From contig NZ_JAMBLT010000001.1 of assembly GCF_023336895.1 (NCBI RefSeq), positions 248,001 to 312,000 of the forward strand: a DNA stretch of 64,000 nucleotides, given 5' to 3'. Below, one piece after another: positions 11,373 to 13,439 of the stretch; within the stretch, counting starts at the first letter, position 1, and every line of letters starts with the position of its first letter. The notes under the pieces were generated by a model. That model ran no database searches and was not told the origin of the DNA. It was given only the letters and a program-made list of their open reading frames with translations. The stretch is from Parasutterella secunda. Its GTDB lineage: Bacteria; Pseudomonadota; Gammaproteobacteria; Burkholderiales; Burkholderiaceae_F. Position numbers and translations under genes: made by a program.

Positions 11373-11405
11373 ACGCCCGCTCGAATCATAAGCGGGCGTT
11401 TTTAT
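11373..11405 (+). terminator. Intrinsic terminator after ssb
   Basis: ACGCCCGCT (11373-11381) pairs perfectly with AGCGGGCGT (11391-11399), followed by a run of T bases. Confidence 0.93.
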
Positions 11406-11586
11406 TTCCGCTTGATTCAAAGGCAACAAAACTTAGCCTAAGAATAGCGCTATACTCCTAGAGCTATCTTATTGTTTAAAAAGAAGTTATAAAAAATCTG
11501 ACTGACTGGCTGGATTTTTTATTTCATTCTGGAGTAAGATGGCGGGTTAATTGTGTATTTAACCCCCTAACGGGTAGAGTGTACAA

Positions 11587-11682
11587 ATGAGTTTATTCCC
11601 CTTGCATTACCGAAATCGAATCGGCCGAGCCTTACGTCTGGCTCGAGGGGAAAATGTTTCCGAAACGGCAATCCTTTTTTAA
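11587..11682 (+). CDS. Putative 31-residue leader peptide of a pyr-type attenuator
   Basis: An ATG at 11587 opens a 31-codon frame beginning MSLFPLHYRNRIGRALRL and ending in ...TAILF with TAA at 11680-11682. The stop codon lies in the loop and first right-arm bases of the following terminator hairpin, so a ribosome close behind RNA polymerase would cover the left arm. This is the arrangement of pyrL before E. coli pyrBI. The peptide has five arginines and no known domain. A hairpin within it (CGAGCC 11626-11631 with GGCTCG 11640-11645) could pause polymerase. The ribosome-binding site is weak (GGGTAGAG), which lowers confidence. Confidence 0.55.
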   Translation: MSLFPLHYRNRIGRALRLARGENVSETAILF

Positions 11683-11698
11683 GGATTGCCGTTTTTTT
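11665..11698 (+). terminator. Attenuator terminator before the amidohydrolase gene
   Basis: ACGGCAATCCTT (11665-11676) and AAGGATTGCCGT (11681-11692) form a perfect 12-bp stem with a four-T loop, followed by seven T bases (11692-11698). It lies upstream of the gene at 11736 rather than at an operon end. The T-run at 11675-11680 inside it would be sensitive to UTP supply. Confidence 0.88.
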
Positions 11699-11735
11699 AG
11701 ATATGTTTGTTTGAACCGCTAAAGAGAGAAGAGCA

Positions 11736-12749
11736 ATGACCGTAATTCCAAATACTGTCCGCGCCATGCTGGAGCCGATGATTAAAGCCAACGGTGGTTG
11801 GGTTAACACCCACGCTCACGCCGACCGTTCCTTCACGCTAAGTCCTGAAATTATGGAAATGCGCCGCACCTGCACTCTGCAGCAAAAATGGGACGCTCTG
11901 GACCGCCTGAAAAGAGAATCAACGGTAGATGATTTCTACACGCGCTTTTGCACAATGTTTGAATTAATGATCAGCCAAGGCGTTACCGCCTTGTGCACCT
12001 TTGTCGACATCGATCCGCAAAGTGAAGACCGTGCCATCATTGCCGGCATCAAAGCTCGTGAACACTACAAAGATCAGTTGACTGTTAAATTTGCCAACCA
12101 AACACTCAAAGGCGTGATTGATCCTGAAGCCCGTAAATGGTTCGATATCGGTGCTGATTTGGTTGACATCATCGGCGCTTTGCCCAAACGTGACGAACGT
12201 GATTTTGGCAAAGCCGATGAGGCCTGGAACATCATCATGGGCACCGCCAAAGAAAAAGGCAAGATGGTTCATGCCCACGTCGACCAATTCAACCAAGCTG
12301 TTGAATATGAAACGGAACAAATGTGCATGAAGACCATGGAATTTGGTCTGCAAGGACGAGTGGTTGGTGTGCACGGCATCTCTATTGCCGCTCACTCCAA
12401 GAAGTATCGCGACCGCCTCTACCAACTGATGCGCGAAGCTGGCGTCATGATGATTGCTTGTCCGACCGCCTGGATTGACACCCCGCGTACGGAAGCAATC
12501 GGACCGATGCACAATTCCATGACTCCGGTTGATGAATTGGTACCTGCAGGCGTTCGTGTGGCTATCGGTGTGGATAATGTGGCCGATGCTATGGTTCCGT
12601 GGAGCGGCGGTGACATGTGGCATGAATTGACCTTAATGGCCACCGGCTGCCGCTATGACAACTTTGAAGACTTGGTTGAAATTGCTACTCGCAACGGTCG
12701 CATGGCCTTGGGTCTCGAACCGTATGAACCGTTGCCCATCAAGAAATAA
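11736..12749 (+). CDS. Cytosine-deaminase-like metal-dependent amidohydrolase
   Basis: A 337-residue member of the amidohydrolase superfamily closest in motif order to cytosine deaminase (CodA). Metal ligands are visible as H26-x-H28 (THAHAD), H181 in HAHVDQ, H213 in VGVHGIS and D280 in GVDNVAD. In E. coli CodA the third motif is HCDE with a catalytic Glu; here it reads HVDQ with Q184 at that place, so the substrate or proton relay may differ. CodA is about 425 residues, so this is a short version. It is followed by a phosphoribosyltransferase gene 18 bases later and preceded by an attenuator, pointing to pyrimidine-base salvage. Confidence 0.8.
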   Translation: MTVIPNTVRAMLEPMIKANGGWVNTHAHADRSFTLSPEIMEMRRTCTLQQKWDALDRLKRESTVDDFYTRFCTMFELMISQGVTALCTFVDIDPQSEDRAIIAGIKAREHYKDQLTVKFANQTLKGVIDPEARKWFDIGADLVDIIGALPKRDERDFGKADEAWNIIMGTAKEKGKMVHAHVDQFNQAVEYETEQMCMKTMEFGLQGRVVGVHGISIAAHSKKYRDRLYQLMREAGVMMIACPTAWIDTPRTEAIGPMHNSMTPVDELVPAGVRVAIGVDNVADAMVPWSGGDMWHELTLMATGCRYDNFEDLVEIATRNGRMALGLEPYEPLPIKK

Positions 12750-12767: not shown

Positions 12768-13439
12768 ATGCCGTCTAAACTTGCTGAAAACATTTTGATT
12801 GAGAATCTGCTCTCATTGAACGCTGTGGCTTTCTTAACTGAAGAACCTCTGCGTTTGAAGTCTGGCTTGGTCACGCCGATTTACGTTGATAACCGCAAGC
12901 TGATCACCCATCCGGATGCTTGGCATGATGTCATTGAAACCATGGCTTCGCTGATTGACAAGTGGGGCTTGGAGTATGACGTGATCGCCGGCGTGGAAGC
13001 CGGTGGTCTTACGCATAGCGCCGCTCTTGCCTATCGTTTGAACGTTCCGACGATTTACGTTCGCCAACGCGCCAAAACTTATGGTGATTTGGACCGTATC
13101 GAAGGCGGCAGCGTAAAGGGCAAACGTGTTTTGATCATTGAAGATCATATTTCTACCGGTCTATCTTGCTTGGATGCCATTAAGACGTTGCGTGAAGAAG
13201 GTGCGATCGTCACCGATTGCGTAAGCATCACCAATTTCGACATGACTGAAACCGCTGAACTCTTTAAGGAAGCTGGCGTCAAGGTTTTCCGCATGATTGA
13301 GTTCAAACGCATTGTTGAAAAAGCCGTCGAAATGGGCATGATCAACGAAGAGCAAAAGGCGACCATCATGGAATGGCTCAAGACGCCGTGGACATGGGCT
13401 GCTCGCCGTGGCTTAATTGCCACCACACGCGAAAATTAA
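12768..13439 (+). CDS. Orotate-phosphoribosyltransferase-like protein
   Basis: A 223-residue type I phosphoribosyltransferase. The PRPP loop is VLIIEDHISTG and the N-terminal PIYVDNRKLITHPD resembles the orotate PRTase strand DNRxL. The mobile catalytic loop reads YVRQRAKTYG, where classical PyrE has R-K-x-x-K-x-H-G; so one lysine is Gln and the His is Tyr, while the other lysine stays. This suggests a divergent PyrE or a PRTase with another base. It is co-transcribed with the deaminase-like gene (18-base gap, AGAGGAG-type site upstream) and ends at a strong terminator. PyrE proper could be elsewhere. Confidence 0.8.
   Translation: MPSKLAENILIENLLSLNAVAFLTEEPLRLKSGLVTPIYVDNRKLITHPDAWHDVIETMASLIDKWGLEYDVIAGVEAGGLTHSAALAYRLNVPTIYVRQRAKTYGDLDRIEGGSVKGKRVLIIEDHISTGLSCLDAIKTLREEGAIVTDCVSITNFDMTETAELFKEAGVKVFRMIEFKRIVEKAVEMGMINEEQKATIMEWLKTPWTWAARRGLIATTREN

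Follow-up and report, generated by a model that had tools for sequence, protein, structure and literature searches.

A putative pyrBI/pyrE-type transcription attenuator preceding an amidohydrolase–orotate-phosphoribosyltransferase-like operon in Parasutterella secunda and relatives

Ribosome-coupled attenuation in response to UTP is known chiefly from enteric bacteria. In the pyrE attenuator of Escherichia coli, the leader is a gene, rph, whose translated frame ends near a ribosome-coupled terminator. In the E. coli pyrBI operon, UTP-dependent pausing of RNA polymerase in the leader and a closely following ribosome together suppress the terminator (PMC4824070, PMC5021804), and UTP-dependent reiterative initiation operates in addition (PMC6245113). 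Here we describe a leader region of Parasutterella secunda, contained in a 64,000-nucleotide stretch of its genome (the window), for which a sequence-only reading had proposed an attenuator of this kind in front of a deaminase/phosphoribosyltransferase gene pair. The layout of the region and its comparison with relatives supported that reading, which we refined with respect to the position of the U-tract and the identities of the downstream genes. We put the probability that a pyrBI/pyrE-type, translation-coupled transcription attenuator controls this amidohydrolase–OPRT operon at about 0.76.

Layout of the leader region

All features described here lie on the forward strand. The upstream gene, ssb, has its own terminator near 11385–11404, and the operon would therefore be served by a separate promoter, probably around the −10-like hexamer TAAGAT (11535–11540). 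In a four-genome alignment this hexamer lies within the block TAAGATGGCGGGTTAATTGTGTATTT, which is kept among close relatives (with TATGAT in the relative G008); it is likely the −10 element of the promoter, with a start site near 11547.

A leader peptide ORF of 31 codons (11587–11682; MSLFPLHYRNRIGRALRLARGENVSETAILF) with a coding signature extends from an ATG at 11587 to a TAA at 11680–11682. Between the inferred promoter and the first structural gene is an intrinsic terminator (11665–11698), the putative attenuator, with a 12-bp stem formed by the arms ACGGCAATCCTT (11665–11676) and AAGGATTGCCGT (11681–11692), or 13 bp with the A-T pair 11664/11693 included, a TTTT loop (11677–11680), and a run of seven T residues (11692–11698). 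The TAA stop codon begins with the last base of the loop and ends with the opening two bases of the 3′ arm. Further upstream, a putative RNA polymerase pause hairpin, CGAGCC/GGCTCG (11626–11645), comprises a 6-bp stem with arms at 11626–11631 and 11640–11645 and an 8-nt loop. This hairpin is enclosed, together with most of the leader, by an outer stem TTCCCCT/AGGGGAA predicted by RNAfold (11596–11652; arms 11596–11602 and 11646–11652; z of −1.9). The U-tract TTTCC (11657–11661) is located 11 nt past the pause hairpin and 5′ of the terminator. The ORF, the terminator, its T-tail and the upstream hairpin were all found where the sequence-only reading had located them. The T-run at 11675–11680, to which that reading had attributed pausing, proved to be the terminator loop itself; the relevant U-tract is TTTCC.

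From this arrangement we infer a response to UTP, pausing, coupling, translation of the leader, and the product of the operon. Polymerase would make the pause hairpin and stall in the U-tract behind it. With UTP plentiful, it would leave quickly and outrun the leader ribosome, so that the terminator would form and the operon would be off. With UTP scarce, the wait would be longer and the leader ribosome would close up on the polymerase; given that the stop codon lies in the loop, the ribosome would then cover the 5′ arm or the loop of the terminator and block the hairpin. The resulting readthrough into the operon would feed UMP synthesis.

Recurrence and constraint among relatives

A plain constitutive terminator, or a damper of transcription, with an incidental ORF would be the simplest account of the window taken by itself: dinucleotide shuffling of this leader gave a suitably long ORF extending to the terminator in 46% of cases. 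The ORF of a single leader thus proves nothing, and relatives were needed. Loci were collected by whole-genome search (19 with a close homologue) and from genome contigs (80 with names), and a terminator above threshold was present 5′ of the amidohydrolase gene in 54 of them. Of these 54 loci, 44 have a leader ORF with its stop within the terminator, at its foot or past it, compared with 19.4 expected (sd 3.3), with the proviso that the loci share ancestry and that independent cases are fewer. The arrangement was detected in 9/9 loci of the genus holding Parasutterella secunda and Candidatus Aphodousia (hereafter, the genus), 11/11 of termite-gut Burkholderiales, 8/10 of other Sutterellaceae, and 16/24 of Pasteurellaceae; at least some of the Pasteurellaceae scored as negative (for example, L102) have a shorter leader ORF and a T-run directly at the terminator. 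In distant relatives the peptide sequence is lost and the layout is kept, with a leader ORF, a hairpin, approximately 7–12 nt, a U-tract, and a terminator overlapped by the ORF. Judged from sequence, this layout is found in variant forms across two bacterial classes.

The frame itself was assessed in an alignment of the window's genome (G000) with G003, G004 and G008, the leaders of which are 78–85% identical to that of the window. No indel occurs between codon 1 and the stop, and the stop always lies in the terminator loop. With the terminator excluded, conservative substitutions marked the leader frame alone (z of 5.5, versus −0.1 and 1.9 in the other frames). The start codon is not fixed: of two in-frame candidates two codons apart, G003 has GTG and G000 has ATG, the upstream GTG of the relatives reading GTA there, and either may serve in G004 and G008. 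The leader alignment proposed as a check of the earlier reading therefore bore out the frame, the position of the stop in the loop, and the conservative changes in close relatives, but not a fixed start codon. In the termite-gut and Pasteurellaceae sets, which offer few sequences and carry overlapping RNA constraints, the coding test did not single out the leader frame.

The stem of the pause hairpin is kept in the close relatives with one mismatch, in G008, and its loop is hypervariable without indels. Other members of the genus have stems of differing sequence at comparable places (for instance, CTCCC with GGGGAG or TTCTCTC with GGGAGAA), and in all members most of the leader folds into a stem that ends just 5′ of the U-tract. 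The U-tract ranges from TTTT to TTTTTTT in relatives within the genus, and that of the window, with three T residues against four to seven in the others, is among the weakest, a point against the attenuator reading. Across 23 leaders, 13 had a run of at least four T residues within 20 nt 5′ of the terminator, compared with 6.3 expected. In a hairpin scan with the closing pair enforced and the spacer counted up to the opening T of the last U-tract, mean hairpin energy showed a broad minimum at spacers of 7–12 nt and was almost gone beyond 16 nt. The best hairpin at 8–13 nt averaged −6.8 kcal/mol in 15 representative leaders, versus −3.1 kcal/mol in shuffles, and energies as low were obtained in 0 of 4000 resamplings of these representatives. 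Examples of the spacing are CGAGCC..GGCTCG-11 nt-TTT in the window, GGGCTT..AAGCCC-11 nt-TTTTC in Parasutterella excrementihominis, and GGCTTCG..CGAAGCC-10 nt-TTTCC in Mesosutterella porci.

The existence of relatives that live without the element also fits a plain terminator. The excess of ORFs reaching the terminator across the 54 loci, the coding signature in one frame, and a hairpin/U-tract geometry that is kept despite sequence divergence nevertheless make such a terminator an unlikely explanation; nor is one needed at this position for ssb, given that this gene already ends at a terminator of its own.

A second alternative is amino acid attenuation of the trp/his type, in which slow translation of control codons, arginine being frequent here, would free an antiterminator. 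Arginine codons account for 5 of the 31 codons in the window's leader and for 7 of 27 in one termite-gut leader, and most of the leader is spanned by a stem. Arginine is, however, present at only 1.24 times the expectation from base composition, no amino acid is strongly enriched, and the codons differ between genera. The 5′ arm of the terminator pairs with the leader no better than with shuffles (mean percentile of 0.54), and the genes downstream are probably concerned with pyrimidines, not arginine. We therefore regard this alternative as improbable. A ligand-binding riboswitch or a protein-binding RNA attenuator (PyrR-like, for example), as a structured leader and terminator preceding nucleotide genes might suggest, is very improbable, given that no Rfam family matched above its gathering score in the window and 15 scanned loci, that the nucleotide sequence outside the terminator shows little conservation even among members of the genus, unlike that of an aptamer, and that coding-type constraint acts on the leader frame. 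Several features that favor a pyrBI/pyrE-type attenuator can be read from the sequences themselves: how the parts are laid out, how often that arrangement recurs, the frame shared by close relatives, the spacing between hairpin and U-tract, and the lack of an antiterminator and of control codons.

Control by attenuation is common but not obligatory. Sutterella showed no comparable leader and terminator, and in Duodenibacillus the amidohydrolase/OPRT-like pair lies behind another gene and has no terminator, indicating that such control is dispensable. In many Sutterella species (10 loci), a hairpin TCAATTTAGCCGC..GCGGC-TTTTC takes the place of the leader shortly 5′ of the amidohydrolase gene. 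In several Haemophilus the terminator has been lost and the frame is often broken, with a hairpin at the old leader start surviving; loss of the frame with retention of the hairpin, the pattern named earlier as counting against an attenuator, is thus absent in the close relatives and present in some Haemophilus. A palindrome, ATGTTATTAA..GAATTTTTYATAACAT, is situated at the leader start in Pasteurellaceae (20 loci), even in Haemophilus lacking frame and terminator, and may serve a separate function.

Two further variations were observed at the start of the leader. In Parasutterella, Mesosutterella, Dakarella and further relatives (eight loci), the leader ATG is located approximately 7–9 nt past a −10-like hexamer with no evident Shine-Dalgarno sequence, a spacing that suggests leaderless leader peptides in these sister genera. 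In termite-gut Burkholderiales, a second hairpin, CCAGCGC..GCTGG-TTTTTTTT, with six to eight T residues, is present upstream of the leader ATG (10 loci); it starts a few nucleotides past a TATAAT box, at the 5′ end of the transcript, and at some of these loci the leader frame extends upstream into it without a stop. Compensatory pairs were also sought in the termite-gut outer stem, in which 95% of cells were paired; no two-sided change, and hence no covariation, was found.

Downstream genes and pyrimidine context

The first gene behind the terminator (11736–12749) encodes a 337-residue amidohydrolase of PRK06886 (NF005365; 467 bits, with a cut-off of 340), an uncharacterised NCBIfam family with relatives among cytosine deaminase and AtzC structures. 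The protein has HxDQ in place of the HxDE of E. coli-type cytosine deaminases, with Gln substituted for the catalytic Glu, and this residue (Q184) is invariant in 13 homologues. Assignment as a classical E. coli-type cytosine deaminase was rejected, given that the catalytic Glu is absent and that cytosine deaminase NCBIfam models scored far under cut-off. The second gene (12768–13439) encodes a divergent, 223-residue orotate-phosphoribosyltransferase-like protein scoring 102.5 bits against TIGR00336 (cut-off of 106.8), and a second, canonical pyrE is present elsewhere in the genome (C1:373650; 197.9 bits). The gene pair originally read as cytosine-deaminase-like and OPRT-like is therefore retained in its second member, albeit a divergent one, and revised in its first. 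In termite-gut relatives the gene order is amidohydrolase, PyrD-like, OPRT-like, PyrF. No paper dealing with either PRK06886 or the present attenuator turned up in the literature library searched.

In a common set of 37 searched genomes, the PRK06886 amidohydrolase was present in 13. PyrC of either class was present in none of the 13 carriers versus 22 of the 24 non-carriers, and PyrB above cut-off in none of the carriers versus 19 of the non-carriers; as the carrier genomes are related, these counts are not independent. Carriers reached through the loci (13 Pasteurellaceae, five Sutterellaceae and six termite-gut genomes, some of which overlap with the first set) likewise included none with PyrC or PyrB above cut-off (0/24). 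In both sets, and in two proteobacterial classes, the amidohydrolase was thus found only in genomes lacking recognisable PyrB and PyrC. A PyrB-like protein scoring 181–186 bits (cut-off of 237) is present in two carriers, the window's genome and another member of the genus; in the former, the aspartate-carbamoyltransferase-like copy lies at G000:C10:25136-26083 (L146; 186 bits). PyrD is kept in most genomes, and upp in many.

The most likely role of the operon is to supply UMP synthesis where the first steps of the pathway are absent. This pyrimidine context also counts in favor of the pyrBI/pyrE-type reading of the leader. The restriction of the amidohydrolase to genomes without the first pyrimidine enzymes provides a concrete hypothesis as to how the gap is filled. 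We tentatively propose, with somewhat less than even confidence, that PRK06886 opens an unrecognised route to UMP that needs neither aspartate transcarbamoylase nor dihydroorotase and feeds PyrD, PyrE and PyrF in host-associated bacteria that have lost the first steps, accompanied by pyrBI-like attenuators in two classes and, in some genera, by a leaderless leader peptide. Attenuators of this type could help to assign uncharacterised genes to pyrimidine metabolism, and the one described here points to an amidohydrolase of this sort, found only where the first dedicated enzymes of the pathway are missing.

Comparison with known attenuators

No similar leader was seen at the canonical pyrE, pyrD, the PyrB-like gene or upp of the same genome. 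The trp/his-type attenuators share with the present leader a leader peptide, a pause hairpin and a terminator, and differ from it in that no run of control codons and no antiterminator are found here. The pyrE attenuator of E. coli resembles it in having a ribosome-coupled terminator that precedes an OPRT gene, whereas the leader is the full gene rph in that case and a dedicated ORF of 31 codons in the present one.

The anatomy also resembles that of pyrL, the leader of E. coli pyrBI. In both, a leader ORF overlaps an intrinsic terminator, which precedes a pyrimidine operon in E. coli and a probable one here, and a pause-type hairpin, located approximately 7–10 nt 5′ of a U-tract (TTTTTC) in pyrL, is followed by the terminator; pyrL showed the same spacing behavior in the same hairpin-energy calculation. 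The pyrL ORF continues past the terminator and ends shortly before pyrB, whereas the ORF described here stops in the terminator loop, and the U-tract is separated from the terminator by approximately 20 nt in pyrL and nearly abuts it here. A T-run like that of reiterative initiation at pyrBI was not seen near the inferred start site. If the anatomy of UTP attenuation is indeed present in Sutterellaceae, termite-gut Burkholderiales and Pasteurellaceae, such control would extend beyond pyrBI and pyrE. The mechanism itself is well established in E. coli; the unusual part here is the target operon, which encodes an amidohydrolase and an OPRT-like protein in place of the aspartate transcarbamoylase of pyrBI.
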